Source: a gamma proteobacterium HIMB30 | GTDB taxonomy: Bacteria > Pseudomonadota > Gammaproteobacteria > Pseudomonadales > Litorivicinaceae | Length of the DNA stretch: 64,000 bases | Reading direction: 5' to 3' | Assembly (NCBI GenBank): GCA_000227525.2 | Contig: AGIG01000027.1 | Span: forward strand, 62,001-126,000 | Shown here: one piece after another, positions 24,993 to 40,413 of the stretch | Numbering within the stretch: the stretch's first letter is position 1 | How the letters are laid out: every line of letters begins with the position of its first letter | Made by a program: the position numbers and the translations under genes | Notes under the pieces: model-generated | The model's input: the letters and a program-made list of their open reading frames with translations, nothing else | Told to the model about the DNA's origin: nothing | Database searches by the model: none

Positions 24993-26597
24993 ATGAACAT
25001 GAAAATTTTAGACTGTACTCTAAGAGATGGTGGCTATTACAACTCGTGGAATTTTGATCAACGGTTGGTAGAGAGTTACCTACAGGGAATGGTAAGTGCC
25101 GGCGTTGACGTTGTAGAGATAGGTTTTAGATTTGCTGTGGTTGATCCCAGATACGGTGCCTACGCAACATCCGGCGACCACTTTCTGACGCTTCTTGATC
25201 TTCCTCCTCAGCTTGAGTACGCAGTCATGATCAACGCTACAGACTTTGTTAGTCAAGGCAAACTTGATCGAGACTTACTCGAACAAATATTCCCAAATTC
25301 CAGTGACAAAAGCCCTGTATCCATCGTGCGGATAGCAGTTGATGCAAAGATGGCCCTGGATGTCGGTGAACTGATAAACGCGGTGAATCAGAAAGGTTTT
25401 CGTGTCTTCCTGAATTGCATGCAGATTTCGGAGATGACTCCTGCGGAGCTGACAACGCTGCTGAGAGCGCTGGAATACGATAACTTGACTGCCATTTACT
25501 TTGCAGACAGTTTAGGGAAATTGAATCCGACCTCTACTATCGAGTTGTGTTCGATTTTCTCTGACTTAAGCCCAATTCAGTTCGGCATTCACGCACACAA
25601 TAATAAGGGGTTGGCACTAGAGAATTCATTAACTGCACTCCAGTATGGTGCGACCTGGGTTGATTCAACAATGCTGGGAATGGGCAGGGGTCCGGGGAAC
25701 ACTCGAACTGAAGAACTATTGCTTTCAACAAAGCCACCGATCGGAGATTCGCTGGAGTTAAATAATCTGTTCACATCATTATTCGAGGATTTTTACCCGC
25801 TGCAAGAAGAATATCGTTGGGGGCCGAACGTTTTTTATTTTGCCTCCGCCTTAGGCGGAGTCCATCCGACATATATTCAGCGGATGCTGGACGATAATAA
25901 TTTGTCAAACATGGAGCGATTGAGAGCTGCTTTCCGGCTTACAGAAGTAAGCGCACAGCGGTTCAAGAGCGATCGCCTCGACAACGTGGTTTCTTCACTG
26001 CTAGTGCAGCAGCGTTGGGGTGATGGGGGGGGACTTGATGATTGCGTTCAACCGAACGTAATTTTGCTGGGAAAAGGCGAAAGCGTTTTACAGAACTCTA
26101 CAGCGATCAGGGCCGCAGCTCGTAAGTTGAGTGCGACAGTTGTATCGGTTAACCAGCCAATCTCAGCGCTAGCAGACATTGTGTCTCTTGTGTGTGTGAG
26201 CAGCATGGCTAAGGCTTCGCATGAAATGCCTTCCAGAATGTTAGGCCGCTATCAAGTCGTGGCCCCTGTATCAAGGATTGCTGCCGAGAGATTTTTGGTT
26301 GACGCAAATGTAATTGATTTTGGATTGGCGGTTGAGGACCAATTTTCTGTTGAGGACGACTACTGCACTACACCAGATGATTTGGGTCTAGCCTATGCTC
26401 TAGGGGTTGTCACTCGTGGCGGAGCAAAAAGAGTTTATCTCGCTGGCTTCGATGATTCTCCTGACCAAGACTTTTTGAAAGATAGATTGCGGAACATTGT
26501 GGTGAAGTTTGAAGTAGATACCGGAGTCACAGTGATTAGCTTAGTGGGGAGAACCTCAGGGGTAGCTCACGAAAATATATATGACATTATCCGATAA
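24993..26597 (+). CDS. HMGL-type aldolase with extra C-terminal domain
   Basis: A 534-residue protein. Residues 1 to about 300 form a DRE-TIM metallolyase barrel (isopropylmalate synthase/4-hydroxy-2-oxovalerate aldolase group): D7-x-T-L-R-D-G at the start, ADSLGKLNP near 171, and the metal-binding H200-x-H202. Residues about 355-534 are a separate Rossmann-like domain with VILLGKGES (356-364) and RVYLAGFDDS (480-489). This layout recalls the GT42/DUF115-like fold, also seen in the protein at 40406. Such barrels condense pyruvate- or acyl-type donors with aldehydes. Beside a CMP-Kdo-synthetase-like gene (17-bp overlap), I infer that it makes a 2-keto-3-deoxy sugar acid. The actual reaction is unknown. 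Confidence 0.7.
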   Translation: MNMKILDCTLRDGGYYNSWNFDQRLVESYLQGMVSAGVDVVEIGFRFAVVDPRYGAYATSGDHFLTLLDLPPQLEYAVMINATDFVSQGKLDRDLLEQIFPNSSDKSPVSIVRIAVDAKMALDVGELINAVNQKGFRVFLNCMQISEMTPAELTTLLRALEYDNLTAIYFADSLGKLNPTSTIELCSIFSDLSPIQFGIHAHNNKGLALENSLTALQYGATWVDSTMLGMGRGPGNTRTEELLLSTKPPIGDSLELNNLFTSLFEDFYPLQEEYRWGPNVFYFASALGGVHPTYIQRMLDDNNLSNMERLRAAFRLTEVSAQRFKSDRLDNVVSSLLVQQRWGDGGGLDDCVQPNVILLGKGESVLQNSTAIRAAARKLSATVVSVNQPISALADIVSLVCVSSMAKASHEMPSRMLGRYQVVAPVSRIAAERFLVDANVIDFGLAVEDQFSVEDDYCTTPDDLGLAYALGVVTRGGAKRVYLAGFDDSPDQDFLKDRLRNIVVKFEVDTGVTVISLVGRTSGVAHENIYDIIR

Positions 26598-27333
26598 CGT
26601 TGTAATCGTAATACCCGCCAGGAGAGCTTCGAGTCGTTTCCCGTCTAAACCTTTGGCGCTGATCCACGGGGTACCGATGGTGGTGAGGGTGGCGCAGCGA
26701 GCCAAGAAGGTATCTAACGTCGACAGAATCTACGTTGCGACAGACGACGATGAGATTAAGACAGTGTGTGAGGATTATGGTTTCGACGCTCTGATGACAA
26801 GTCAAGATTGTCCTACGGGGACAGATAGAGTCGCTGAGGTTGCTTCACGGATTGACGCTGATATCTTTATTAATGTCCAGGGTGATGAACCTATGGTTTC
26901 CCCCGCTGCAATAGAGTCAGTGGTCACCCGTATGAGACTTTCAACGGATAATGTTGTGAATTGCTTTTCCAGTTTCCCTCAACATCGGAAGAGCCACATT
27001 AGTTCGCCAAGAGTTGTTGTGTCCGAAGATAGAAGATTAATCTATGCCAGCCGGGCTGATATTCCCGCATCAAAAGAGGGTCCGTCTAAAGTCCTAAATC
27101 GTCAAGTCTGTATTTATGGCTTTAATAAAGATCATTTGCGCTTTTTTCGAGAAGATTATCCGAGTAAATCACCTTTAGAATCATTGGAGGATATCGAGAT
27201 TCTTAGATTTTTGGAGGCTGGATGGCGGATTGATATGTTGGAAGTTCCGGATGACGGAATCGCAGTTGATTTTCCTTGGCAAGTTTCAGAGGTTGAAAGT
27301 TTGGTGGATGAGACTTTTTGGGATTGCCCTTAA
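26581..27333 (+). CDS. CMP-Kdo synthetase-like cytidylyltransferase (KdsB family)
   Basis: A 250-residue nucleotidyltransferase that in family terms joins CMP to a 3-deoxy-ulosonic acid. KdsB hallmarks are IPARRASSRFPSKPL at the N-terminus, YVATDDDEI, TGTDRVAEV, FINVQGDEPM, and the late ESLEDIEILRFLEAG segment. The start overlaps the aldolase gene. Its coupling to that aldolase, away from the usual Kdo genes, suggests a dedicated role with the aldolase product rather than housekeeping Kdo. The next gene starts on its stop (TAATG). Confidence 0.8.
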   Translation: MTLSDNVVIVIPARRASSRFPSKPLALIHGVPMVVRVAQRAKKVSNVDRIYVATDDDEIKTVCEDYGFDALMTSQDCPTGTDRVAEVASRIDADIFINVQGDEPMVSPAAIESVVTRMRLSTDNVVNCFSSFPQHRKSHISSPRVVVSEDRRLIYASRADIPASKEGPSKVLNRQVCIYGFNKDHLRFFREDYPSKSPLESLEDIEILRFLEAGWRIDMLEVPDDGIAVDFPWQVSEVESLVDETFWDCP

Positions 27334-29063
27334 TGGTGCATTTAATAAGATTTATTTTTGCGACTTTCGATACCCCGCTTATCCGACGGAATATGAATTA
27401 TGCCGGGTTAGTATTAATAGCTGGAGCTCTCGAATTTTTTTCGATATTTTCAATAGTGCCGGTCGCTTCCATTCATTTCGTAGATGGTTTTTTTGAGAAT
27501 CTTCTATTACGAATTGATACGACGCCATTTATTGGTTTTGCATTTCAAAAATTGAATATATTAAGAGACAAATTTTTTTTTACTTTGTTGCTTGTTATTT
27601 TTCTGTTAGCGGTATCTCTTTTTAAGTTCTACGTTAATAAATACATGCTTATGTTGGGCGTTATGGTTGAATCTCATATATGTAAAGCCAGATTGCTCTC
27701 GCATTTGCACAGACCTCTTCGTGAAACCTGGATGGTCCCGCCGTCGGACGCTGTTTCGAAGATCCTGCATGATTCGGCTGTCATAACCAATGAGTTTGTG
27801 ATGCCTTTGTATGTAATTTTATTGAACGTTTTGATGGGATTTGGCGTTTGCGCGGCTATTGTGTATGTTTTTCCTGGTTCAGGATTATTGTTTCTCAGCG
27901 TTGCGGTTCTTTTTGTTATTGCGATTTCTAAGTTGGCATCTGCTTATGTCGGTAGGCTGGGTGAGCAAAGGGTAGCTGAGAATCAAGCCAGGTATTCTTC
28001 TGTAGTGTCCACCGTTAACAATCTACGAATGGTCAGGGCGACCAACAGCGAAAAACCGATCTTTTGGAGATTTTGCCAGCTATCTGATAGGTATGCGTTG
28101 ACCATGGCCGCCATGCGCCTGGTGCTCAGTATTCCCCGCCTATCATTTGAAGCGATCTTATATGTGGGAGTGCTCGTAATTTTAGCGACAGTGGATTTGA
28201 AGCCGAGCGCCGAGCTTGGTGCCGCGGCAGTAGGACTTGTTGTTGCGGTGTTTAGACTGTTACCGGTAGCTTCGCAGCTGGCGAGTGCCTTGGTTAAGAT
28301 TCGGGGAGCGCACAGAATCGCCGAGCGATTTGAAACTGATTTAACTTATGATAAGCCCACCAAAAATGAGCCGAGAAGAACTGATTGTGAGGTGGTCTTT
28401 GAACATGAGATCAATCTCAATAATATTAGCTTCAGATATCCTGAACATAGGCAGGATTTGCTTACTGATCTGAATTACAAATTCCAATTCGCGCAGTGGT
28501 ATTTGATCGAAGGTAAATCGGGTTCCGGTAAGAGTACGATTTTGAATTTGATTTCTGGCATTATTGAGGCGCAGGCAGGCGACGTAAGTATTGATGGTGT
28601 AGATATTGGTTTCTACGCTGAAAGATCTCTTGTAAGTTTTTTTGCATATTCAGGGCAAGAGACATTGATAATGCCGGGAACAATCCAGGCGAATATTTGC
28701 TGTGATCTCGCGGTGAATGCTGATCGGCTACGAACGGTCGTTTCGGTGGCTTGTTTGGAAAATTGGTTAGCAGAAACGGCCGAAGGTTTAGATACGTTAA
28801 TATCGGAGAACGCAGCCAGTATCTCTGGTGGTCAAAAACAGCGAATTGGACTAGCCAGGTGTCTTTATCACTCCAAGGGAGTGCTTCTTTTGGATGAAGC
28901 TACTTCGTCGGTAGATATGGATACTGAGGCTGCTATTTTTAAGCGCATTCGTCAATCTGGGCTTGTGCATACAGTCATCGCTGTTAGTCATTCGAAATCA
29001 ATTCGTGTTTTTTTCGATAAGGTTTTGCAATTAAATAACAATGGACAACTGAAGGTGCTATGA
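27333..29063 (+). CDS. ABC half-transporter (MsbA/PglK-type lipid-oligosaccharide flippase)
   Basis: A 576-residue fusion of a membrane domain (about 1-330, six hydrophobic segments) and an ATPase domain. Seen: Walker A GKSGSGKS (394-401), Q-loop Q442, signature SISGGQ (496-501), Walker B LLLDE (518-522) and H-loop H553. It would act as a homodimer. PglK-type homologues flip lipid-linked oligosaccharides, which fits a glycan locus; MsbA-like lipid A export is the other possibility. ATG 27333 overlaps the previous stop, and the frame extends further only through a TTG at 27318. Confidence 0.85.
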   Translation: MVHLIRFIFATFDTPLIRRNMNYAGLVLIAGALEFFSIFSIVPVASIHFVDGFFENLLLRIDTTPFIGFAFQKLNILRDKFFFTLLLVIFLLAVSLFKFYVNKYMLMLGVMVESHICKARLLSHLHRPLRETWMVPPSDAVSKILHDSAVITNEFVMPLYVILLNVLMGFGVCAAIVYVFPGSGLLFLSVAVLFVIAISKLASAYVGRLGEQRVAENQARYSSVVSTVNNLRMVRATNSEKPIFWRFCQLSDRYALTMAAMRLVLSIPRLSFEAILYVGVLVILATVDLKPSAELGAAAVGLVVAVFRLLPVASQLASALVKIRGAHRIAERFETDLTYDKPTKNEPRRTDCEVVFEHEINLNNISFRYPEHRQDLLTDLNYKFQFAQWYLIEGKSGSGKSTILNLISGIIEAQAGDVSIDGVDIGFYAERSLVSFFAYSGQETLIMPGTIQANICCDLAVNADRLRTVVSVACLENWLAETAEGLDTLISENAASISGGQKQRIGLARCLYHSKGVLLLDEATSSVDMDTEAAIFKRIRQSGLVHTVIAVSHSKSIRVFFDKVLQLNNNGQLKVL

Positions 29064-30058
29064 AGAAGATCTTGGTCACCGGAGCCGGCGGGTTCATAGG
29101 TTCTCATCTGGTCACGAGTTTAGTTGAGAGTGGTTATGAAGTCCGAGCTTTTGTTCGGTATAACAGTAGAGGAAGTAGCGGATTTATTGATGAAATACCC
29201 CATGATCTTCGATCCAAAATAGACGTTATGTTCGGTGATATTCGAGATTATGAATCAGTCATCAGGGCAGTATCTGGTGTTGATGTAGTAGCTAACTTGG
29301 CCGCGCTGATCGGAATTCCTTACTCGTATGAAGCGCCACGCTCTTACGTCGATGTCAACGTATGCGGTGCACTGAATGTATTGCAAGCGTGCCGGTCAGT
29401 CGGCGTTGAGCGCGTGATCCAAATCTCTACCAGTGAGGTTTACGGAAAAATTCAATATAGTCCTATCGATGAGCATCATCCTTTAGGTGGAATTTCTCCG
29501 TATGCAGCGTCCAAGATCGGAGCGGATCAGCTTGCTTTATCGTATTACGCATCGTTTGATTTGCCAGTTGTAGTTGTCAGGCCTTTTAATACCTTCGGCC
29601 CGAGGCAGTCTCAAAGGGCAATAATACCGACAATTATTGCTCAAGCCCTGGAACATCACAGCGTAACGCTTGGTTCATTGACTCCCACTAGGGATTTTAC
29701 ATACGTAAAGGATACATGCCGGGGTGTGCGAGCAGCTATCGAGGCCAGTGATATCGTTAACGGTGAAGTAATACAGCTTGGAACAGGATTTGAGATTTCG
29801 ATCGGGAGCCTCGTAGATGTAGTCTCGAGGGTTATGGGAAAAAGCCTAAGTATTACTGCTCATGAGGAGCGCTTCAGACCAGAGAAATCAGAAGTTGATC
29901 GTTTGGTAAGTGATTTCACTAAGGCTAAAACGATGCTTGGTTGGACGCCTGATTTTATGGGATTTGAAGGGCTTTCCAAGGGTATTGAGCATACACTTGA
30001 ATGGCTCATGGAGCAGAGACGCTTAGGGTTAGAAACAGACCTCGGATATCGGATTTAA
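29060..30058 (+). CDS. legB: LegB-like NDP-sugar 4,6-dehydratase
   Basis: A 332-residue SDR-family protein. ILVTGAGGFIGSHL binds NAD(P). The motifs VANLAALIGIPYSY, STSEVYG, SPYAASKIGADQLALSYY, RPFNTFGPRQSQRAIIPT and GSLTPTRDFTYVKDT match the LegB group, which dehydrates NDP-GlcNAc at the start of legionaminic-acid synthesis (GDP-linked in Campylobacter). It overlaps the ABC gene by 4 bp. The aminotransferase LegC that usually sits beside it is absent here. Family call strong; nucleotide specificity unknown. Confidence 0.85.
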   Translation: MKKILVTGAGGFIGSHLVTSLVESGYEVRAFVRYNSRGSSGFIDEIPHDLRSKIDVMFGDIRDYESVIRAVSGVDVVANLAALIGIPYSYEAPRSYVDVNVCGALNVLQACRSVGVERVIQISTSEVYGKIQYSPIDEHHPLGGISPYAASKIGADQLALSYYASFDLPVVVVRPFNTFGPRQSQRAIIPTIIAQALEHHSVTLGSLTPTRDFTYVKDTCRGVRAAIEASDIVNGEVIQLGTGFEISIGSLVDVVSRVMGKSLSITAHEERFRPEKSEVDRLVSDFTKAKTMLGWTPDFMGFEGLSKGIEHTLEWLMEQRRLGLETDLGYRI

Positions 30059-30072
30059 AAAATTTGGGCGAT

Positions 30073-30984
30073 ATGTCAGTTAACATATTATTTCTTGGTG
30101 GCGGAAAGAGGGTACGCTTAGCACAAGAGTTCCAGAGGGCCGGTGAAGAGCTGGGCTACACAGTTAACTGCTGGTGTTACGATTTCGGGGATAAATCTGC
30201 ATTTATCCATGTTGGAAAACAGGTCTCAGGCCTTCCATGGACCTCTGAAAATTTAATTCCGCATTTGAAACAAGTTGTCGAGCACTTGTGCATAGATTTA
30301 GTAATTCCTTGCGTTGATCCCGTCATACAATCTTTGTACTCTGCAAAGGTGGATTTTTTGGGAATGAGCTCGGGAAACCTTGAGCCTTGCTTTTCTAAGT
30401 CGGTATTCGAAAGCTTTTGTCACAGCCATGGAATACCCTGCATACCGCAAGCCGGTGTTTTGAATTCCGAGTTCCCAGTATTTATAAAGCCAGATTGTGG
30501 ATCTAACTCTGTTGGCGCGATGAAAATTTGGACCAGTGAGGAGTTGGGTGAACGGCTTTCTTCCGGGAACTATATCGTTCAGGAGTTCATTTCGGGAGTA
30601 GAGATTTCTGTAGATGTTTTTGTCGCAAAGGATGGAGTGTTGCGGGTTCTCAGTCCGCGTGTGAGGCAAAACGTTTCGGGTGGAGAGGTTATGAACTCGG
30701 TGACAACAGACGCTTCTCTAGTTGCTGAGTTGACGAAACAAATTATTGGTGCATTGCAATTAAAAGGAGCGGCCACCCTTCAATTCATTATCCCAGATGA
30801 CTCGAATCAGCCTCTGGCCATGGAGGTTAATCCGAGATTTGGGGGTGGCGTCATATGTACAGTTGCAGCTGGGGGTGATATTCCAAAGCTCATGTTGCTT
30901 GATTTTTTAGGTTTAGAGGTACCCTATTTGAGAGTACGATCAGGCATTCAGATGTACAGATATTTTGCCGAGGTAATTATTTGA
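30073..30984 (+). CDS. ATP-grasp domain protein
   Basis: A 303-residue protein related to carbamoyl-phosphate-synthase/PylC-type ATP-grasp ligases. An N-terminal preATP-grasp fold (ILFLGGGKRVRLAQEF) is followed by FPVFIKPDCGSNSVGAMKI (ATP-binding Lys and Gly-rich loop) and the metal-binding MEVNPRFGGG near the end. Such enzymes join a carboxylate to an amine through an acyl phosphate. In this setting it may attach an amino-acid or carboxylic-acid group to an amino sugar; that is inference. ATG 30073 is preceded by GGGCG and overlaps the HAD gene by 4 bp at its 3' end. Confidence 0.75.
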   Translation: MSVNILFLGGGKRVRLAQEFQRAGEELGYTVNCWCYDFGDKSAFIHVGKQVSGLPWTSENLIPHLKQVVEHLCIDLVIPCVDPVIQSLYSAKVDFLGMSSGNLEPCFSKSVFESFCHSHGIPCIPQAGVLNSEFPVFIKPDCGSNSVGAMKIWTSEELGERLSSGNYIVQEFISGVEISVDVFVAKDGVLRVLSPRVRQNVSGGEVMNSVTTDASLVAELTKQIIGALQLKGAATLQFIIPDDSNQPLAMEVNPRFGGGVICTVAAGGDIPKLMLLDFLGLEVPYLRVRSGIQMYRYFAEVII

Positions 30985-31301
30985 GATTAATTGTTGATTT
31001 AGACGGAACAATATGCACCGAGGAGAAACAATTTAGCAGAAGCTTGGCGCTACCACTTGATGGCTCGGTAGATTTTCTAAAACAGATTAAAAAAGACGGG
31101 CACACCATTATTATTTACTCAGCCCGGTCGTGGGCTGAATATGAGATGACCGTAGACTGGCTTGAAAAATTTCAAATACCTTTTGATCAACTAGTTCTGG
31201 GAAAGCCTATCGGAGACTACTGGATAGATGACAGAGCAATTGAGTTTAAAGGATGGTCTAGTGTAACGAAGCGATTGTTAAATGATAGAAGTGATAGCTG
31301 A
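30981..31301 (+). CDS. Small HAD-family phosphatase
   Basis: A 106-residue protein with the HAD nucleophile motif LIVDLDGTIC at the N-terminus, IIYSARS (motif II Ser/Thr region) and the late GDYWIDDRAI acidic motif. It resembles the short capsule-biosynthesis phosphatases found in polysaccharide loci. The TTG start overlaps the ATP-grasp stop (TTGA), and the end overlaps the NeuB-like gene by 20 bp. It may dephosphorylate a sugar phosphate precursor; the substrate is unknown. Confidence 0.78.
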   Translation: MRLIVDLDGTICTEEKQFSRSLALPLDGSVDFLKQIKKDGHTIIIYSARSWAEYEMTVDWLEKFQIPFDQLVLGKPIGDYWIDDRAIEFKGWSSVTKRLLNDRSDS

Positions 31302-32280
31302 GGCTGGCGTTAATCATAATGGTAGATTGGTAAATGCCCTTAAGTTAGTAGATGTTGCGAGGCGGGCTGGGGCTGATGTTGTTAAATTCCAGGCTGCAGT
31401 TCCCGAGCTCGTAGTCTCTAGGCTTGCCGAACAGGCTCCCTATCAGATAAGGAATACTGGTAAAATAGAGTCGCAACTCGACATGCTCAAACGAATTCAC
31501 TTGCCTCTAACAGATTTTGAAAAAATCAAGCTGCATTGTGATGATGTGGGTATCGAGTTCATGTGTACTGCCTTCGATTTTGAAAGCTTTCGTGTGATTG
31601 ATGAATTGGGAGTCAATCGTCATAAAATTCCGTCTGGTGAGGTAACGAATAAACCGTTTTTGGAGTTGATTGGCCTTTCAAAGAAGCCATTAATAATTTC
31701 GACAGGTATGGCCTCGATATCTGAGGTTAGCGAATGTCTGCAAGTCGTGTTTGCAGACCGTCCGCGGCGGAATTTAAAATTGTTGCATTGTGTAACACAA
31801 TATCCCGCGCAGTTTCGTGATTCAAATCTTCGGTCGCTCGCAACTCTGAAAGAGACGTTTGCGTGCGATGTAGGTTATTCAGACCATTCGGTTGGGAATA
31901 CAACGGCACTTGTTGCTTTGGGTCTTGGAGCCATTTTGTTTGAGAAGCATTTTACCCTCGACCAAAATCAACCAGGTCCAGATCATAAAGCAAGTGCCTC
32001 TCCAGAGGGCCTTTCCTCTTACGTTAGTGTATTGAGGAGCGCTGCTATGAGTTTGGGTGACGGTATAAAAAAAATTGCGCCGGGTGAGGTCGAGAATTTA
32101 GCCGTTGCGCGACGATCTATTTGTGCTGCAAGGGAGATCAGGGCTGGATCAAAAATCAATGCAAAAGATCTGGTTTGTTTAAGGCCTGGAGTGGGCATTA
32201 GCCCTATGAGAATTAATGAAATCATTGGTACAAGCGCAGTGGTTGATTTTAAGATTGGGGACCTAATTCGAATTGAATAA
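31282..32280 (+). CDS. legI: N-acetylneuraminate/legionaminate synthase (NeuB/LegI)
   Basis: A 332-residue enzyme that condenses PEP with a 2-acetamido-type aminosugar to give a nonulosonic acid. The TIM barrel shows EAGVNHNGRLVNAL, ADVVKFQAAVPE, KIPSGEVTNKPFLE, ISTGMAS, CVTQYPA and GYSDHSVG. The C-terminal SAF (antifreeze-like) domain starts about residue 275 (RRSICAAREIRAGSKI). Legionaminate rather than sialate is chosen from the LegB-like and amidotransferase neighbours. Confidence 0.88.
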   Translation: MIEVIAEAGVNHNGRLVNALKLVDVARRAGADVVKFQAAVPELVVSRLAEQAPYQIRNTGKIESQLDMLKRIHLPLTDFEKIKLHCDDVGIEFMCTAFDFESFRVIDELGVNRHKIPSGEVTNKPFLELIGLSKKPLIISTGMASISEVSECLQVVFADRPRRNLKLLHCVTQYPAQFRDSNLRSLATLKETFACDVGYSDHSVGNTTALVALGLGAILFEKHFTLDQNQPGPDHKASASPEGLSSYVSVLRSAAMSLGDGIKKIAPGEVENLAVARRSICAAREIRAGSKINAKDLVCLRPGVGISPMRINEIIGTSAVVDFKIGDLIRIE

Positions 32281-33397
32281 TTTCAACGTCGCTGTGGTTT
32301 CAACGTGTAGGGCCGATCTCGGGCTTGTCAGTCCGTTAGCGCAGCGCTTAGCTGATAGTCCGCAGATCTGCTTGGAGCTCATATCTGCTGACTGTGATGT
32401 TGAGTATGTGTTTCCAGATGTCAACAGCGATGAATGCAAGAGGGTTGCTCTACCGCTTACGATGCAGTCGTCCAATCATGTCGCAATGTCTCTACAAATC
32501 GGTGAGTCAATTATTCATTTTGCTCAGCATTTTTCGAAAAAAAATTATGATTGCGTCGTTCTCCTAGGTGACCGATTTGAAGTTTTTGCCTGCGCCGTTG
32601 CTCTTTACAGCCAAGGGATAAGTATTGTGCATTTAGCGGGAGGCGAGACTACGGAAGGAGCATTGGATGATAAATTCAGACACTCAATAACTCTGTTTTC
32701 AGCCATTCATCTTGTCACAAAACCAGCATACGCAGATAAAGTAATGGAATTAGGCGCCAGACCGGATAGCGTTTTTGTTGTTGGGGATTTCGCTGTAGAC
32801 AACTATTCCAAAATTTTAAATCAGGAACGAGATCATTTGATCGCGCCTGGGCTTTTCAATATTATTTTTACGTTTCATCCCGTGACAACCGACTTCGAAG
32901 GCTATGGAGTCAGTGAATTGCAGCAATTGTTGGCGGCGTTGGATTGTTTCATGCGGCAATTTGGAGACGACGTCCGAATTATCGTGACCGCGCCTAATTC
33001 TGATCCAGGTGGGGAGCGTATTGATAAATTATTGACCGACTGGGTTGGAAAGTTTGAGGATAGTAAAGTGAAGTATGTCAGCACTTTAGGCTGGAAAAGA
33101 TATCTAACAGTTGTGTCCCAAAGTCAATTAATGATCGGAAATTCATCGAGTGGCCTCACTGAGGGTGCTGCGTTATGTACAAAAGTTTTTAACGTCGGAG
33201 TTCGTCAAAAAGGGCGCATATCTGATGGAGCAGTTCTAAATGTCGAGGCGATTAAGGAAGTTATCAACCACCAATTACGATCTTGGTTTATCAACTATAA
33301 ATCTGAACAGTCGAAATATGATACCGCAACGTTTAGTCATTCGCCTGCGCTTCAGTCATGTAAGGCAATCCTTCGCTTTCTCGAGGCTGGGAAATGA
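32273..33397 (+). CDS. legG: UDP-sugar hydrolysing 2-epimerase (NeuC/LegG)
   Basis: A 374-residue GT-B-fold epimerase/hydrolase that releases the 2-epimerised sugar used by the NeuB-type synthase. Motifs: STCRADLGLVSPLAQ, VLLGDRFEVFACAVAL, IVHLAGGETTEGALDD, FTFHPVTTD and IGNSSSGLTEG. The frame starts with TTG at 32273, 8 bp inside the synthase gene, giving MNNFNVAVVST, the usual N-terminal strand. It overlaps the next gene by 4 bp. Confidence 0.88.
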   Translation: MNNFNVAVVSTCRADLGLVSPLAQRLADSPQICLELISADCDVEYVFPDVNSDECKRVALPLTMQSSNHVAMSLQIGESIIHFAQHFSKKNYDCVVLLGDRFEVFACAVALYSQGISIVHLAGGETTEGALDDKFRHSITLFSAIHLVTKPAYADKVMELGARPDSVFVVGDFAVDNYSKILNQERDHLIAPGLFNIIFTFHPVTTDFEGYGVSELQQLLAALDCFMRQFGDDVRIIVTAPNSDPGGERIDKLLTDWVGKFEDSKVKYVSTLGWKRYLTVVSQSQLMIGNSSSGLTEGAALCTKVFNVGVRQKGRISDGAVLNVEAIKEVINHQLRSWFINYKSEQSKYDTATFSHSPALQSCKAILRFLEAGK

Positions 33398-34479
33398 GTC
33401 TTGTTCGGATTTATGGGCAGGATGTCCAGAGGTCTTTAGTTACTCATGGTTGTTCTTTGAGGCAAATCGCTGAGTGCCTTGAGCGAACAAGCGGTGGGGT
33501 TTGTTATATTTTGCGCGATGGTCGCCTATGGGCTACGGTAACTGATGGTGATCTCCGTAGATTACTCCTCTCTAATATTTCTGTGGGCTTTGCTGACCTC
33601 AATACCGATGACTTCGGTTCTCTAAAACCATGCTTCGTGAAAAATGACGAGTCTGATGAAGTTATACTGAGTCATATGAATCAACTCGGTGTCAACGAAT
33701 TGCCGTTAGTTGGTCCGGATGGCTCGATTATAAGTCTTGTTAGGCGCGTGTCGAATGAATCCCTGCCCTGCAACTCGACTTATTTCGTCATAATGGCGGG
33801 AGGCAAAGGTCGCAGGATGGGAGTGAAAACAGTCGACCTCCCAAAACCAATGCTAGAGGTAGGAGGAAAACCGCTCGTAGAACACATCATATTAAACGCA
33901 AAAATAAATGGATTTAATAAATTTGTAATTTCGGTGAATTATCTAGGTCATGTGATAGAAGATTATTTTGGCGACGGCTCGAGGTTAGGCGTCTCTATAG
34001 AATATTATAAAGAACAGAATCCATTAGGGACCGCGGGCTCTCTGTACCACATAGTTGAAAAGTTCAAGATTACTGGACCGTTCATGGTGTCAAATGGAGA
34101 TATTTTTGGAATATTTAACTTCCAGTCTATGATGCAAGAGTTTAGGGTTTCAAACGCCGATGTTCTGGTTTGCGGAAAGCAGCACGTGATTACTAATCCA
34201 TACGGCGAGATGCTCACGGATGGCACCGGTAATTTATTGTCCGTCAGAGAAAAGCCCGAGATGCACAGTATCGTGAACGCCGGTGTTTATGTCGTGTCAC
34301 CAGACATTATTAAAAGTCTCCTAGACGGTGGTAGATTAGATATTACTGAGCTGATGAACATCTGCTTGCAACTGAAGAAAAAGGTGAAAGTATTTTTATT
34401 GACTGAAAGCTGGAGAGATGTTGGGACTCCTGCGGATCTCAGCGATGTGAATGAGGAGATAAATTGTGTCTCAAGTTGA
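33394..34479 (+). CDS. ptmE: CBS-domain sugar nucleotidyltransferase (PtmE-like)
   Basis: A 361-residue two-domain protein. A CBS pair occupies residues 1 to about 118. A sugar-1-phosphate nucleotidyltransferase follows with MAGGKGRRMG (134-143), LPKPMLEVGGKPLVEH, DLPKP and NGDIFG. In Campylobacter PtmE activates glucosamine-1-phosphate with GTP for legionaminic acid, which would fit the LegB-like dehydratase here. It overlaps the preceding gene by ATGA and the amidotransferase gene by 14 bp. Confidence 0.82.
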   Translation: MSLVRIYGQDVQRSLVTHGCSLRQIAECLERTSGGVCYILRDGRLWATVTDGDLRRLLLSNISVGFADLNTDDFGSLKPCFVKNDESDEVILSHMNQLGVNELPLVGPDGSIISLVRRVSNESLPCNSTYFVIMAGGKGRRMGVKTVDLPKPMLEVGGKPLVEHIILNAKINGFNKFVISVNYLGHVIEDYFGDGSRLGVSIEYYKEQNPLGTAGSLYHIVEKFKITGPFMVSNGDIFGIFNFQSMMQEFRVSNADVLVCGKQHVITNPYGEMLTDGTGNLLSVREKPEMHSIVNAGVYVVSPDIIKSLLDGGRLDITELMNICLQLKKKVKVFLLTESWRDVGTPADLSDVNEEINCVSS

Positions 34480-35719
34480 GGTGTATTATGGCCTGCCTCG
34501 GCAAGTCGAATTTTGTTCTCGATGCGTAATTTCTAATCAACGCCCAAATTCTGCCATTGAGTTTAAACACACAGGAGAAACCAAGAAAGAGACCATAAAT
34601 TTTGTTGATGGTGTTTGTGATGCGTGTCGCTATGCCGAAAAGAAAAAAGAGATTGATTGGGATAGTCGGGAACATCAATTGAGAGAACTTTGCGATAGAT
34701 TTCGTAAAGCGGATGGTTCGTATGATTGTTTGGTACCGGGGTCTGGAGGGAAAGATAGCTTTTACGCGGCACACAAACTCAAATATGAGTATGGCATGAA
34801 CCCCCTTACGGTCACCTGGGCTCCTCATATTTACACAGATTGGGGCTGGGCGAACTTCCAGAGTTGGATACATAGCGGCTTCGACAACTACCTCTGTACT
34901 CCGAACGGACGAACCCATAGGCTTCTCACTCGCCTTGCAGTTGAGAACTTGTTGCATCCCTTTCAGCCCTTCATGATCGGTCAAAAAGCTTTGGCCCCTA
35001 AGTTGGCCGCAAAGCATGGTATTTCCCTGATTTTTTACGGTGAGGATGAGGCTGAGTACGGTAATCCAATAGAGGATACCGAATCTAGTCAGCGTGCGTG
35101 GCATTATTTTGCAAGCTCAGATAATGCAGATATTTATCTCGGAGGCGTGTCGCTCGCCGAGTTGACGAACAGATATTTGCTCTCGATGTCCGATCTTGAC
35201 CTTTACTTGCCGGCAGATCCGAGGGAACTAGAGGCAAATAAAACAGAAGTCCATTACCTTGGCTACTACTTAAAATGGCACCCCCAAGGCTGCTATTATT
35301 ATGCTCAGGAGCACAGTGATTTTAAGGCCGCGCCCGAGCGGACAGTAGGTACCTACTCCACTTATAATAGCATCGATGACAAGATAGACGATTTGCACTA
35401 CTACACTACTGGGGTGAAGTTTGGACTGGGGCGTGCTTCTTATGATGCTTCCCAAGAGATACGGTCTGGTGACATCACTCGATTTGAGGGTGTGCGTCTT
35501 GTGGAAAAATACGATCATGAGTATCCGTCAAGATTTCTTCCCGAATTGCTCGCCTATCTGTCCATCGATCACAAGACGTTCGGTGGAATATCAGGTAATT
35601 TCGAAGAACCTGTGATGACCAAGGACTATTTCGATGACCTTGTCGACTCATTCAGATCTCCGCATTTATGGCTGAAAAAACACGGCTCTTGGTCATTAGT
35701 AAGATCGGTTTATGCCTAA
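34466..35719 (+). CDS. N-acetyl sugar amidotransferase (WbpG/PseA/PtmG type)
   Basis: A 417-residue PP-loop ATPase. N-terminal Cys pairs (C17/C20 in CSRCVIS and C51/C54 in CDAC) suggest a metal site. SGGKDS (93-98) is the pyrophosphatase loop that adenylates the acetamido group. The family converts an N-acetyl to an acetamidino group, using ammonia from HisH/HisF-like partners. Exactly those two genes follow (8-bp overlap with hisF-like). GTG start with GAGGAG upstream. It strongly suggests an acetamidino-bearing sugar in the glycan. Confidence 0.85.
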   Translation: MSQVEVYYGLPRQVEFCSRCVISNQRPNSAIEFKHTGETKKETINFVDGVCDACRYAEKKKEIDWDSREHQLRELCDRFRKADGSYDCLVPGSGGKDSFYAAHKLKYEYGMNPLTVTWAPHIYTDWGWANFQSWIHSGFDNYLCTPNGRTHRLLTRLAVENLLHPFQPFMIGQKALAPKLAAKHGISLIFYGEDEAEYGNPIEDTESSQRAWHYFASSDNADIYLGGVSLAELTNRYLLSMSDLDLYLPADPRELEANKTEVHYLGYYLKWHPQGCYYYAQEHSDFKAAPERTVGTYSTYNSIDDKIDDLHYYTTGVKFGLGRASYDASQEIRSGDITRFEGVRLVEKYDHEYPSRFLPELLAYLSIDHKTFGGISGNFEEPVMTKDYFDDLVDSFRSPHLWLKKHGSWSLVRSVYA

Positions 35720-36458
35720 TAAAGCGGCGCCATTGCGCGTCATAGCTAGGCTCGATACGAAAAATGGACGATTGATTAAACCCGTTCGATTCGAAGGTGT
35801 TCGACAGATAGATAATTTGATGGAGCGCGTTGAATCGTACGTGTTAGGGGGTATAGATGAATTGGCGATATTTGATGTGGTGTCCTCTTTATACAATACC
35901 CCCACAGAATTAGAGGTCGTAGGAGAAATATCAAAGGCATTCTCCATCTGTATAGCTGCTGGTGGAGGAGTCTCATCGATAAATGATGCTGAAAAACTTC
36001 TCCGATTTGGGGCTGACAAGATCTTGATAAATACTTCTGCTGTCAAGAATAAGGACTTAATTAGATCTATCTCTCGGGAAATAGGTACTCAATCAACTGC
36101 GGTATCTATACAAGCCAAAAAGTCGGAATTGCTTGGCTTTGAAGTTATGGTAGAAGCGGGCCGGCAACAAACGGGAATGGCTGTGTGTGATTGGATGAGT
36201 GAGATCCAAGATTTGGGGGCGGGAGAGATTATCATGACGTCCGTTGACTCGGACGGGGTCAACGCAGGTTTGGATTCTCAGCTGATCTCTTACCTAAGCC
36301 ATTGCCAAGTAGATCGCCCGCTGATTTTGGGTGGAGGGTTCTCCCCTTTGAGCCACGTCGGTCTTCCACGGGTGATTGATGGCCTACTTGTCGGGAGCTT
36401 TTTTCACCTAAAAGGTGGTTTAAGTGAAGACGTGCGAGCCTCGGTCAGCTATGTCTAA
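35712..36458 (+). CDS. HisF-like ammonia-channel subunit with D-to-Q change
   Basis: A 248-residue (beta-alpha)8 barrel of the imidazole-glycerol-phosphate synthase cyclase family. The first catalytic Asp is kept (D15 in RVIARLDTKNG), as are the phosphate-binding AAGGGVSS and TSVDSDG. The second catalytic Asp, in the strand that reads AID-A-K in true HisF, aligns with Q134 (AVSIQAKK). This argues against histidine synthesis and for a role only in channelling ammonia from the HisH-like glutaminase to the amidotransferase. Confidence 0.85.
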   Translation: MPNKAAPLRVIARLDTKNGRLIKPVRFEGVRQIDNLMERVESYVLGGIDELAIFDVVSSLYNTPTELEVVGEISKAFSICIAAGGGVSSINDAEKLLRFGADKILINTSAVKNKDLIRSISREIGTQSTAVSIQAKKSELLGFEVMVEAGRQQTGMAVCDWMSEIQDLGAGEIIMTSVDSDGVNAGLDSQLISYLSHCQVDRPLILGGGFSPLSHVGLPRVIDGLLVGSFFHLKGGLSEDVRASVSYV

Positions 36459-37068
36459 AGTCACAATTTTAAAATTAGGAGTTTACAACAGGGGTAGCAT
36501 TTTTAATTGGTTGTGGCGAAATGGGTGCCAGCCGGTAGAGGAATGTGGTGCGTCGATTAAGCTGGATGATGTACAAAACTTGATTATTCCCGGTGTGAGC
36601 ACATTCGAAAAACTCCAGAGTGCTTTTCAGAATCTTGATGTTGAGTTGTTTAGGGAAAAAGTTAGTGCTGGCGAACTCCGTGTAATCGCGATTTGTGCGG
36701 GCATGCAATTTCTTTTTGAGTCTAGTGAAGAGTCGCCTGGGGCGAAAGGGCTGGGTTTATTGAAGGGACATATCTCCAAATTGCAACCAGATTCCCATCA
36801 ATCTGTAAAATCGGTAAATATTGGCTGGCGCGAAACGCATATAAATACCGCGCAGTTTAATCATGCCGATCCGGTTCATTCGTTTTACTATTGCCATAAA
36901 TATGGCTTGGCTAACGTTGAATTAGATGATGTTATCGTAGGTAAATCAGTTTTCGCGGGGGTCGAGTTTGCCTCAATAGTTAAATGGAAAGCTCTCCTCG
37001 GTGTGCAGTTTCACCCCGAGATTTCTGGATTCGCAGCAGATAAAATACTTCAGCATTTCGATGGCTAG
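36451..37068 (+). CDS. HisH-like glutamine amidotransferase subunit
   Basis: A 205-residue class I glutaminase. The nucleophile C82 is in ICAGMQFLFE, and the catalytic pair H188/E190 in VQFHPEIS. The oxyanion strand is PGVS rather than PGVG. ATG 36451 overlaps the hisF-like gene by 8 bp, as expected for subunits of one complex. It should supply ammonia for acetamidino formation by the preceding amidotransferase. The overlap with the next gene is also 8 bp. Confidence 0.88.
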   Translation: MSKVTILKLGVYNRGSIFNWLWRNGCQPVEECGASIKLDDVQNLIIPGVSTFEKLQSAFQNLDVELFREKVSAGELRVIAICAGMQFLFESSEESPGAKGLGLLKGHISKLQPDSHQSVKSVNIGWRETHINTAQFNHADPVHSFYYCHKYGLANVELDDVIVGKSVFAGVEFASIVKWKALLGVQFHPEISGFAADKILQHFDG

Positions 37069-38041
37069 ACCTGTTTCGGTTCTAATTGTGGGTTTGGGAA
37101 GCATAGGAAGGCAGCATTTAAACAGGTTGCTCACCATGGGTATCCCTGGACCAAATATTCATGTTTTGTCTAGAAGTGCGCCAATAGAATCCATCCCCAA
37201 CGGTGTTACAGTCCACCGGAACTTCGACGCAATTGCTGCAATCGAGTCTATTACTCATGCATTAATCTGCACCGCCGCTTCACAACATACTGACGATGTA
37301 GTAGCGCTGATCAGCAAAAAAAAGTGCGCGGTTTTAGTGGAGAAGCCTGTATGCAGCAAAGTAGGAGTTGAAGAAGAGCGTTTACTGGAAACTTTAGAGA
37401 TCAATGATCAATCCAATCGGGTTATGGTTGGTTATAATCTTAGGTTTGACTCGGGAATCCGAAAGCTGCGGGGAATGATTACCAAAAACTCTTTTGGTAG
37501 CGTTTACGTTATTGAAATGGCTGTGTCCCAAAATTTGCAGCAATGGCGGCCTGGGGCTGACTATACTAAGTCGGTGAGTGCCAGCAGGGATCTCGGGGGA
37601 GGAGTCCTACTAGAGCTTTCCCATGAAATTGACTGCTTAAGATGGCTTTTCCCGGGGATGCGTATGAGTATGAGCAAAGTCGAAAAAATATCAGACCTGA
37701 TGATTGACGTTGAGGATTTTGCTCACTTAACTTTTGAACACGAGCGTAATCGGCGCCCTTTAGCATTTTTAACCCTTGATATGGGATCAAAGTCGTTTCA
37801 TCGATACATTAGGGTACGTGGGGAGTTCCGTACGGTTTTTTATGACCTGCTATCAGGAACAATGATCGACGAGTGTTCAATGACAACTATTTTTCAAAGA
37901 ACAAAGACGCTGACTGAAGAGACGCAAATCCGGCAATTGGAAAGCTTTTTATATTTTCAAAATACGAAAGAACATTGCTCGTATCGAGAGGGGTTAGAGG
38001 TTGTAAATATCATAGAGGCGGCTAAGGGAATAAATGGATGA
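37061..38041 (+). CDS. Gfo/Idh/MocA-family oxidoreductase
   Basis: A 326-residue NAD(P)-dependent sugar oxidoreductase. VLIVGLGSIGRQHLNRL is the Rossmann loop, VLVEKPVCSK the conserved E-K-P motif, and GGGVLLELSHEIDCLRWLF the signature His region of the second domain. It starts at ATG 37061 inside the end of the hisH-like gene and overlaps the CMP-sugar synthetase gene by 4 bp. Such enzymes occur in legionaminic-acid clusters (PtmF position), but its substrate is unknown. Confidence 0.82.
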   Translation: MARPVSVLIVGLGSIGRQHLNRLLTMGIPGPNIHVLSRSAPIESIPNGVTVHRNFDAIAAIESITHALICTAASQHTDDVVALISKKKCAVLVEKPVCSKVGVEEERLLETLEINDQSNRVMVGYNLRFDSGIRKLRGMITKNSFGSVYVIEMAVSQNLQQWRPGADYTKSVSASRDLGGGVLLELSHEIDCLRWLFPGMRMSMSKVEKISDLMIDVEDFAHLTFEHERNRRPLAFLTLDMGSKSFHRYIRVRGEFRTVFYDLLSGTMIDECSMTTIFQRTKTLTEETQIRQLESFLYFQNTKEHCSYREGLEVVNIIEAAKGING

Positions 38042-38757
38042 TAGCGCTCATTTGCGCCAGAGGCGGTTCTAAAGGCGTTCATCGAAAAAACGTAAAGCAG
38101 TTTGCGGGTAAGCCTCTCATAAAGTGGTCAATAGAGTTTGCGAAGCGGAACTCAAGCATATTTACTGTATTTGTCTCGACAGAGGACAAAGAAATCGCCA
38201 AGGTTTCTAAGGACTCAGGGGCACTTGTTCCTTTCCTTCGTCCAGACGCCTTGGCAACAGATGACGCTGTAGAGACTGATGTGTGGAAAGATACCCTCAA
38301 CCGGCTGATCTCTAGCGATTTTTCGGTTACCGAAAATACTGAAGTATGTATTCTGCCCGCGACCTCACCGCTACGTAGACATCAATCGTTTGATCGTGCA
38401 CTGAAGCTTTATAGAAAACATCGGAAAGGTTTTGTAGTCGGGGTGTGTCGGGCATCACATAATCCCTATTTTAACATGGTCTCGCTCGAAGATAACTCAT
38501 CGCGTTGTCAAATTGTTTGTCCAACCCCAGAGAATATCACGCGTCGCCAGAGTGCTCCATCAGTATGGAATGTAACGACAAATTTTTATATTTCGGATGT
38601 CCGTACCATCATGTCGATGAAAAACCTCTGGAGTCAGCAGGTCTTGGGCGTGCCTGTAACTGAAATTGAATCCATTGACATAGATACGGAGCTAGATTTT
38701 ATGATTGCTGAATATCTTTTCCTGACGAATGAAGAGTATTGTTGTGTTCGAGAATAA
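38038..38757 (+). CDS. legF: CMP-nonulosonic acid synthetase (NeuA/LegF)
   Basis: A 239-residue cytidylyltransferase that activates the nonulosonic acid with CTP. Motifs: IALICARGGSKGVHRKN (P-loop-like N-terminus), FVSTEDKEIA, LPATSPLR, RRQSAPSVWNVTTNFYI and the metal-binding SIDIDTELDFMIAE. It is distinct from the KdsB-type gene at 26581, so two ulosonic-acid activating enzymes lie in one operon. Confidence 0.88.
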   Translation: MIALICARGGSKGVHRKNVKQFAGKPLIKWSIEFAKRNSSIFTVFVSTEDKEIAKVSKDSGALVPFLRPDALATDDAVETDVWKDTLNRLISSDFSVTENTEVCILPATSPLRRHQSFDRALKLYRKHRKGFVVGVCRASHNPYFNMVSLEDNSSRCQIVCPTPENITRRQSAPSVWNVTTNFYISDVRTIMSMKNLWSQQVLGVPVTEIESIDIDTELDFMIAEYLFLTNEEYCCVRE

Positions 38758-39496
38758 GAGGTTTGTTATTACAGGTGCTGCCGGGTATGTGGGTCAGGCA
38801 CTAATGCTGAAGCTCGCACATTCAGGCGCTGAAGTTATAGCCACAGATATGCATACTCGTATCGATAACCAAGAGATATGCAGCAGTTACTATCAGTGTG
38901 ATTTAGCAGACCTTACTCAAGTTGATATTCTAGGGAAAAAAATCGCGTCTCAAGAAGGGATAGTAGATGGGTTTGTACATAGCGCATCGTTAGTTGGGAC
39001 ATCAAACACTGTTGGATGGACCGGTGATTTTTTGAGCCAGAAAGTGCAAACGATGGAGCTTGCTTACCGTGTCAACTCTTTGTCAGGTATTTCTTTAATT
39101 CAAAATTTGATGCAAAACTTCTCACTTGCCGAACAACCCTCGATCGTATTGGTAAGCAGCATATACGGAAGCTTAGGTATTCAGTGGGACCTTTATGAAG
39201 GAACTTCGATGTCTTCCGCTCTGGGATATGGGATGTCTAAGGCTGCTCTCGAGCAGGCCGCAAAGTATTTGGCTACCGCTCTAGGACCAAAAATTCGCGT
39301 AAACTGCGTTGCTCCTGGGGGGTTATGGAGAGACCAACCTCAATTATTTGTGGATAGATATACTACTAGAACAGTCCTCAAAAGGATGGGGACCGAAGAG
39401 GATGTAGTCCAAGGTATCGAGTATCTGCTATCCGAGAATTCTCGATATATCACCGGTCAAACCATTATGATTGATGGCGGATGGTCAGTTTGCTAA
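38729..39496 (+). CDS. Short-chain dehydrogenase/reductase (PtmA-like by context)
   Basis: A 255-residue classical SDR. It has FVITGAAGYVGQALMLKLA (NAD(P) loop), the VHSAS strand, catalytic Ser in VLVSSIYGSLG, and Y-x3-K in GYGMSKAALEQA. The C-terminus ends GQTIMIDGGWS, typical of the family. The corresponding SDR in Campylobacter legionaminate loci is PtmA, but specificity cannot be read here. It overlaps the preceding gene by 29 bp. Confidence 0.8.
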   Translation: MKSIVVFENKRFVITGAAGYVGQALMLKLAHSGAEVIATDMHTRIDNQEICSSYYQCDLADLTQVDILGKKIASQEGIVDGFVHSASLVGTSNTVGWTGDFLSQKVQTMELAYRVNSLSGISLIQNLMQNFSLAEQPSIVLVSSIYGSLGIQWDLYEGTSMSSALGYGMSKAALEQAAKYLATALGPKIRVNCVAPGGLWRDQPQLFVDRYTTRTVLKRMGTEEDVVQGIEYLLSENSRYITGQTIMIDGGWSVC

Positions 39497-40413
39497 CCCG
39501 GATACGCAAGGCTCTAAACATTCGTCCGCTATGGTTCGTGTATTGGAGCGCGTTCTTCAGTCCAACCCAAAGCCCTCTTAGAAGACGTTATCGTAAAACA
39601 AATCCTATCGGCTATATTTTTAGACTTTGGTTTTATTTTATTTCGAATCAAAATAAACAGCGTTTAAGATACAAGGCTTACCTCAGCCGAGGAAAATTCG
39701 GAAGAGCGTCACGATACTTAGAGATGCCATCGAAGAGGAAATTCTACTCGCATAAATGTCACTTCCCCAAGCTAAAAACATCAATATTACATATCCCAAA
39801 TCCTCAAGCCAGTGTCTTACAAGATCGGATTTTACAATCCTTTGAAATAGAGGCTTTTTTGAATTCATCGCCAACTGATTTCAATAATTTTTCCGATGAC
39901 AATAAAAAATATATTATCTTTTATAGTCATGAAAAGGCTTCTCTCTTCGCTGAGTCAATCGCCGATTGGGATATACCCGATAATGTAGAGCTTGTTTTTA
40001 AAAGAAAAATGGCTTGGTTCAATAAACTAGACGATCGACGACGTTCTAGAATTTCTCTTTTTCCATCCAATTATATCGAATCTAAATATGGGGTATACAA
40101 CCTAGGGGTGGCAGCCTCAAAATATCTTGTTTTGGATCGATCGTATCGATTATTAATAAATGGTATGGATTTCAACTTGTCTCGTGAGCGACCGATTGGT
40201 TACCACATTAAAGGATTGTCAAGGCACGCGTATAACAATGATGAGTTTTTGTCAGACTGTCTGCAGCATGATCCAGCGATTAACTTTAATATAATTTCAG
40301 AATTGTACTATTCAGGCCTTATTGATTTAGATGAGCGATGTAAAACCCTGGTCGAGCAAGGTGTTCATAAATATTTTAGTCTTCTGGAAGAGAAGTTTAG
40401 GGAATATGGTTAA
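39481..40413 (+). CDS. Unrecognised glycan-locus protein
   Basis: A 310-residue basic protein I cannot place. The N-terminal third is rich in Arg/Lys and aromatic residues. A late segment, VYNLGVAASKYLVLDRSYRL followed by LINGMDFN, loosely recalls the Rossmann strand of GT42/DUF115-like proteins, as in the next gene (IILVGVDFS). It overlaps both neighbours (16 bp and 8 bp) within the operon, so it is probably a real, translated member. A glycosyltransferase-like role is a guess. Confidence 0.5.
   Translation: MVSLLTRIRKALNIRPLWFVYWSAFFSPTQSPLRRRYRKTNPIGYIFRLWFYFISNQNKQRLRYKAYLSRGKFGRASRYLEMPSKRKFYSHKCHFPKLKTSILHIPNPQASVLQDRILQSFEIEAFLNSSPTDFNNFSDDNKKYIIFYSHEKASLFAESIADWDIPDNVELVFKRKMAWFNKLDDRRRSRISLFPSNYIESKYGVYNLGVAASKYLVLDRSYRLLINGMDFNLSRERPIGYHIKGLSRHAYNNDEFLSDCLQHDPAINFNIISELYYSGLIDLDERCKTLVEQGVHKYFSLLEEKFREYG

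Follow-up and report, generated by a model that had tools for sequence, protein, structure and literature searches.

A putative metal-dependent aldolase and a KdsB-like cytidylyltransferase as parts of a candidate route to CMP-activated ulosonic acids in diverse bacteria

A 64,000-nucleotide stretch of contig AGIG01000027.1 from the gamma proteobacterium HIMB30, here called the window, carries two overlapping genes, one for an aldolase-like barrel fused to an additional C-terminal domain and the other for a cytidylyltransferase resembling KdsB. Our comparative analysis indicates that this pair is probably part of a three-step route to a 3-deoxy-2-ulosonic acid activated with cytidine monophosphate (CMP). 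Activated ulosonic acids, among them 3-deoxy-D-manno-octulosonic acid (Kdo) and sialic, pseudaminic and legionaminic acids, are built by synthases of the KdsA or NeuB type, which depend on phosphoenolpyruvate (PEP). With somewhat less confidence, we favor the wider proposal that the genes represent a third, widespread bacterial route to CMP-ulosonic acids, running through a metal-dependent pyruvate aldolase from a family other than those of KdsA and NeuB, and extending over marine Pseudomonadota, SAR11, Prochlorococcus, Bacteroidota and Gram-positive Bacillaceae; the acid that it supplies may be new to such a role. Conservation of the gene set, exchange of the cytidylyltransferase type, one gene fusion, two draft genomes with no recognisable KdsA or NeuB, and changed KdsB motifs were computed directly.

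The aldolase and KdsB-like genes encode 534 and 250 amino acids (24993-26597 and 26581-27333) and overlap by 17 bp. The HMGL-like family PF00682 covers residues 3-244 of the aldolase (E 1.2e-27, 97.4 bits against a gathering score of 29). An R-D pair together with an H-x-H metal and substrate motif is the defining feature of DRE-TIM metallolyases, and the window protein has both, as D7-C-T-L-R11-D12 and H200-x-H202, so profile score and motif agree in placing it in this superfamily. Relatives were collected by scanning contigs with a three-sequence alignment, which gave at least 591 candidate stretches, of which 583 were confirmed and the best 80 were kept. Seventy-nine of these loci (numbered with the prefix L below) had an aldolase frame with the motif, the 80th being L096, and 69 frames of at least 480 amino acids were taken as full-length relatives. 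In an alignment of the window protein with 68 of those 69 (A2; L071, cut by its contig, was omitted), the motif residues are invariant in 69/69 sequences, and the invariant positions include R11, D12, E42, R113, H200, H202, N204, D224 and R232; a second alignment, A3, held the window and 67 relatives, with L043 also omitted. The roles of R11, D12, H200, H202 and N204 are presumably those in known aldolases of the superfamily. AlphaFold2 modelled the full-length protein with a mean predicted local distance difference test score (pLDDT) of 91.8 and a separate C-terminal domain at about 345-534, so that the extended HMGL-type barrel proposed in the original prediction is borne out. Foldseek placed the barrel closest to PDB entry 3dxi, a putative Bacteroides aldolase, and to 4-hydroxy-2-oxovalerate aldolases, and a search of PDB with the 69-sequence A2 profile returned only these two kinds of protein at E 1e-20 or better. 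KdsA and NeuB families did not appear among the Pfam or NCBIfam matches of the aldolase at E ≤0.001.

Neighboring genes were classed by profiles made from the neighbors of the aldolase loci. A cytidylyltransferase gene on the same strand lies within 100 bp of the aldolase in 47 of the 69 full-length relatives (33 KdsB-like and 14 NeuA-like), and within 3.5 kb in 16 more; the proposed unit of aldolase and KdsB-like gene is therefore a conserved one. The usual third partner, a HAD phosphatase gene of one family, was missed by the original prediction; it lies within 1.5 kb in 45 relatives and within 4.6 kb in 7 more, 52 in total. As a control at the same loci, a cytidylyltransferase was found within 100 bp for 42 of 595 other non-HAD genes, as against 47 of 70 aldolase frames. 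Collapsing the 69 A2 rows at 60% identity left 43 groups, 30 with an adjacent partner (the window being counted here), 10 with a near one and 3 with none. A second sample, independent of the scan, took 274 genomes evenly from across the class; seven carry the C-terminal domain, one of them being the window's genome. In each of the other six, one of which has only the end of the domain on its contig, the short flank includes a cytidylyltransferase at a distance of at most about 760 bp, and in 3/6 it includes a HAD gene. Among Bacteroidota loci found with L096 as the query, the aldolase adjoins a cytidylyltransferase in L138 (the genome of L093), L140, L142, L143 and L150, and on a Leisingera RefSeq plasmid the trio is annotated as an aldolase catalytic domain-containing protein, a 3-deoxy-manno-octulosonate cytidylyltransferase and a HAD family hydrolase. 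In L096 itself, a Bacteroidetes single-cell contig and a single case, the barrel and the KdsB-like enzyme form one 592-amino-acid frame without the C-terminal domain (HMGL-like 92.6 bits, CTP_transf_3 144 bits). L093 was rejected as a second fusion; both genes are in one frame with a stop codon between them. A search of phage records with the L030 aldolase gave no match at 1e-15.

The two kinds of cytidylyltransferase have replaced each other repeatedly. On a quick tree of 83 aldolase barrels with many unresolved forks, the KdsB-like or NeuA-like label changes 10 times over 67 labelled rows, or 11 times if two NeuA-like kinds are taken as separate states. When only the 51 rows whose partner is adjacent are counted, it changes 7 times; well-supported branches alone force 4. 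The very close Halomonas aldolases of L032, L035 and L038 have different partners. Since two distant enzyme kinds that activate 3-deoxy-ulosonates take each other's place beside one aldolase family, the common element is probably the class of substrate.

The KdsB-like product matches CTP_transf_3 at E 3.7e-43, in agreement with the original assignment. It passes the NCBIfam cut-offs of NF009905 (PRK13368; 268.3 against 255 bits) and NF003952 (231.6 against 193 bits), and does not reach those of the KdsB equivalogs TIGR00466 (136.6 against 155.2 bits) and NF003948 (156.6 against 281 bits). The window's genome has its own KdsA, KdsC (G000:C30) and a second KdsB, 42% identical to the module copy, and the idea that the window enzyme is the only KdsB of its genome, an objection raised with the original prediction, was rejected on that ground. 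In a tree with 63 relatives, 45 rows including the window enzyme and the L096 fusion form one group (Shimodaira-Hasegawa-like approximate likelihood ratio test 97), outside which stand the long-branched module row L029 and 12 KdsBs whose housekeeping role is presumed, namely KdsB-family matches plus the second copy of the window's genome. The KdsB-like neighbors of L044, L062, L080 and L082 form a group of their own; these divergent genes lie 2-3.4 kb after the aldolase, and their residues are unlike those of both other KdsB groups. In L044, ferredoxin-like, HAD and HpcH/HpaI aldolase genes stand between the aldolase and the cytidylyltransferase.

For comparison with the 12 housekeeping rows, 44 module rows were picked after the tree was made, leaving out L029, the L092 gene at 1111, L044, L062, L080, L082 and the duplicate L123, and keeping L066 and L127, where adjacency is divergent or not established. 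Eleven columns separate the two sets. A His of all 12 housekeeping rows is Gln in 44/44 module rows and a Gly of all 12 is Cys in 41/44, both within RHIGVYAYR; the Phe of FSR, again in 12/12, is Met in 37/44, and a change from Gln to Ile in LEQLR is also among the separating columns. In 10 of these columns the window enzyme agrees with the module rows, and in the remaining one it has Ala for Met, so that it departs from FSR and RHxGxYAYR with A156, Q175, C177 and F181, where 10-12 of the 12 KdsBs have F, H, G and Y. PMC7717453 describes FSR and RHIGVYAYR as motifs that bind the substrate. From these changes, it seems likely that the KdsB-like enzymes of the module act on a sugar acid different from Kdo.

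Twenty genomes with the aldolase were tested for KdsA and 14 for KdsB. KdsA was found over its cut-off in 15/20, and KdsB over the TIGR00466 cut-off in 11/14. Three of the five genomes without KdsA have NeuB at 231-326 bits. The other two, those of L053 and L094 (Rossellomorea aquimaris and a metagenome-assembled Bacillus genome), each gave a single NeuB match over Pfam's low cut-off, of 32.1 and 38.4 bits, and these are bifunctional DAHP synthase/chorismate mutase proteins (653.3 and 655.5 bits against a family cut-off of 279). Recognisable KdsA and NeuB were not found in these two module-carrying draft genomes, and their PF02348 matches fall one at the coordinates of the module cytidylyltransferase and one in a GlmU-sized frame. 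The proposal of a 2-keto-3-deoxy acid made without a KdsA- or NeuB-type synthase has thus gained strong comparative support from synteny, partner exchange, the fusion and these two genomes. Because the pairing recurs in unrelated bacteria, two of them without the usual sugar-acid synthases, the aldolase probably represents a way of making 3-deoxy sugar-acid surface sugars that had gone unrecognised. In another Gram-positive, Bacillus sp. ISL-41 (L092, genome G480), KdsA scores over the cut-off, and two KdsB-family genes lie near the aldolase module.

In the route that we propose, the barrel would join pyruvate to an aldose phosphate, acting as a metal-dependent pyruvate aldolase like 4-hydroxy-2-oxovalerate aldolase, a role suggested by its fold, motifs and context. 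The neighboring genes point to no particular substrate. The HAD phosphatase would then take off the phosphate, and the KdsB-like or NeuA-like enzyme, judged by its family, would couple the acid to CMP using cytidine triphosphate. This proposed logic of synthase, HAD phosphatase and CMP transfer is the same as that of KdsA-KdsC-KdsB, and the CMP enzyme is a relative of KdsB. However, the module synthase is a DRE-TIM barrel without a KdsA match, the KdsB substrate motifs differ, and the module HAD proteins of L026 and L053 match no NCBIfam model at 1e-8 and 1e-10. The module resembles NeuB-NeuA in that the adjacent partner, which would carry out the CMP activation, is NeuA-like in 14 of 47 cases, and differs from it in being a trio without a PEP-dependent NeuB-type synthase. 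The sialic acid 9-phosphate pathway of animals includes a phosphatase step, like that proposed for the module. With 4-hydroxy-2-oxovalerate aldolase (PDB 1nvm, 4lrs, 8ih7), the module aldolase shares the barrel fold and the R-D, H-x-H and GMG-GaGN motifs; it differs in a Tyr for the motif His, in its C-terminal domain and in scoring below the TIGR03217 cut-off for that enzyme (78.9 against 286 bits). PDB 3dxi, the N-terminal domain of the putative aldolase BVU_2661, belongs with the module aldolases, scoring 340.5 bits with the A2 profile, and is known as a structure only. Table 1 lists the features discussed.

Table 1. Positions of the gene pair, its domains and a candidate phosphatase gene in the window
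Feature	Position	Strand	Basis
Aldolase fusion gene: HMGL/DRE-TIM barrel, helical linker and MptE-like C-terminal domain (about 345-534)	24993..26597	+	reading frames, Pfam, AlphaFold2, Foldseek
Barrel part with R11, D12, H200, H202 and N204	24993..25724	+	PF00682 match
C-terminal domain, MptE-like/SteA-like fold, divergent in the window copy	26025..26594	+	profiles, structure model
KdsB-like putative CMP-ulosonate synthetase, module clade	26581..27333	+	Pfam, NCBIfam, tree
Small HAD phosphatase-like gene, candidate phosphatase	30981..31301	+	EcbF-BcbF-like, 51.1 bits against a cut-off of 162

The C-terminal domain of the aldolase was modelled well on its own (mean pLDDT 91.4 for the last 190 residues), and in the class sample it lies in frames of 538-548 amino acids, except for one that its contig truncates. 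The family's domain has a weak likeness to MptE-like (PF01973) and SteA proteins: 32 of 68 family members match PF01973 at E ≤1 (best 7.3e-7), while the window's own domain matches no Pfam family at E ≤1. The best PDB matches of the domain profile were HPPK (E 0.007) and the sialyltransferase Cst-II (E 0.05-0.16). Foldseek ranked SteA and HPPK first (E 0.002-0.012, template modelling scores 0.46-0.58), with none below E 0.001, and no GT42 protein was among the 50 matches listed, many of which were unrelated barrels with low template modelling scores. The nearest folds are, weakly, those of MptE-like and SteA proteins, of a nucleotide-binding type, and to this limited extent the model does not point to an unrelated domain. 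The original prediction had likened the domain to a GT42-like protein encoded farther along the window, at 40331-41119. Direct likeness was not upheld, as hhalign gave a probability of 8% over 23 columns (2.9% for an unrelated Rossmann protein as control), and similarity to GT42 was not significant. What stands is a shared distant family, since that gene and the relatives of the domain both match PF01973. The gene itself scored 1e-6 for MptE-like, below the gathering score, and 0.0019 for CST-I, below the cut-off; its product is possibly sialyltransferase-like. The added domain of LeuA acts as a feedback sensor, and we speculate that the domain of the aldolase may bind a nucleotide or CMP-sugar, perhaps in a similar regulatory role.

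Several observations weigh against the proposed route, or against the window copy taking part in it, and they are given here together with three alternative explanations. One of these, compatible with our reading of the family as a whole, is that the function shared by its relatives has been lost or altered in the window copy through decay of the C-terminal domain and loss of the module HAD. The two window proteins sit on long branches of the aldolase and KdsB trees, and the aldolase has S404, D488 and V518 at positions that are mostly H, G and T in its family, so its C-terminal domain may have lost the role suggested above. The usual HAD gene is not beside the pair, nor was it found elsewhere in the window's genome, by a single-sequence query whose empty answer shows little; if it is missing, step 2 would need another phosphatase there, either KdsC at G000:C30 or the small HAD protein at 30981, which is similar (phmmer E 3.6e-8) to the product of the small gene following the fusion of L096. 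The barrel motifs are nevertheless intact, the KdsB-like enzyme reads as a module member in nearly all separating columns, and the open frames and their overlap have been kept. We regard loss of function as unlikely, although it is the strongest of the alternatives. In 21 genomes of the same genus, no match to the aldolase was better than 1.8e-8, and a nearly full-length match turned up in just one other genome (G074) among the 96 searched; given this rarity, the module appears to be a variable gene island within the genus.

According to a second explanation, the aldolase has another substrate, in acyl-CoA condensation or keto-acid breakdown, and merely shares an operon with a cytidylyltransferase that uses the product of NeuB, KdsA or an HpcH/HpaI enzyme. 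DRE-TIM enzymes are diverse, and NeuB and PseF-like genes are present in the same window. Other observations count against the proposed route as such. Position 15 of the aldolase is Tyr in 68/69 sequences, at what we take to be the site of the catalytic His in known 4-hydroxy-2-oxovalerate aldolases. No same-strand cytidylyltransferase was found within 3.5 kb in 6 of the 69 relatives (L043, L066, L091, L052, L059 and L095); L043 is at a contig end, L066 has an adjoining but divergent KdsB-like gene, and L052, L059 and L095 are near-identical Pelagibacter loci in which the next gene belongs to one cluster, its L052 member being a B12-binding radical SAM protein. The Bacteroidota locus L153 likewise has no cytidylyltransferase in its flank and has an HpaI-like gene after the aldolase. 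Genes of one cluster, identified by Pfam as HpcH/HpaI in the three tested, lie between aldolase and cytidylyltransferase in L035, L041, L044, L062 and L080, and in these loci and L153 another pyruvate aldolase could supply the acid. Barrel-only relatives (L078, L089 and L090 of Streptomyces, L100 of Pseudomonas orientalis, and L097 and L098 of rhizobia) form a separate group on the aldolase tree; no cytidylyltransferase was found at their loci, and some are in other contexts. A HAD relative is beside the aldolase in L078, L089, L090 and L100, and L090 also has DHDPS and SDR genes; perhaps the same acid is left unactivated there, in natural-product clusters. Against another substrate stand the L096 fusion, the control count, the PDB profile matches at 1e-20 or better, which were all aldolases, and the two module genomes without recognisable KdsA or NeuB, though both of these absences were called on drafts. 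Taken together, this explanation appears improbable.

According to the last explanation, the module makes ordinary Kdo, and the aldolase takes the place of KdsA, to which it is unrelated, by joining pyruvate to arabinose 5-phosphate. This would suit a KdsB-like partner and the five of 20 aldolase genomes in which KdsA did not reach its cut-off. Against it, KdsA is already present in the window's genome and in 15 of the 20, KdsB passes TIGR00466 in most genomes tested, the partners differ from the presumed housekeeping KdsBs in their substrate motifs, and 14 of the 47 adjacent partners are NeuA-like; we hold it to be marginally the least credible of the three. True KdsBs can themselves diverge in such a motif, as that of Chlamydia does (PMC7717453), a point against the proposed route. 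In the literature covered, outside which most subscription journals lie, there was no report of the module and no activity for the aldolase family, which also counts against the proposed route. A text search for 3dxi or BVU_2661 gave nothing relevant, and no aldolase was found in PMC4384082 or in the passages covered of PMC11766843 (Kdo in Cobetia polymers) and PMC11641403 (marine polysaccharides); PMC3210612, also on marine polysaccharides, was checked for ulosonic acids only.

The window contains a second sugar locus at 29060-39496. It includes a LegB-like gene (433 bits against a cut-off of 475), NeuB (PF03102), NeuC over the TIGR03568 cut-off, a nucleotidyltransferase, WbuX over its cut-off, a WbuZ/HisF-like gene, a class-I glutamine amidotransferase and a PseF-like cytidylyltransferase below its cut-off; none of the genes scanned in this locus was seen to encode an aminotransferase. 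These genes suggest a second sugar, of the legionaminic or pseudaminic type, with an amidation step.

If the aldolase module does provide a third route to CMP-ulosonic acids, then predictions of surface sugars from genomes miss a route present in marine bacteria, SAR11 and Prochlorococcus among them, and in some Gram-positives, and genes now annotated as KdsB would be misread as Kdo enzymes. A pyruvate aldolase would also become available for sugar-acid synthesis. Since KdsA and NeuB are not recognisable in two of the genomes, the question is open to a direct test.

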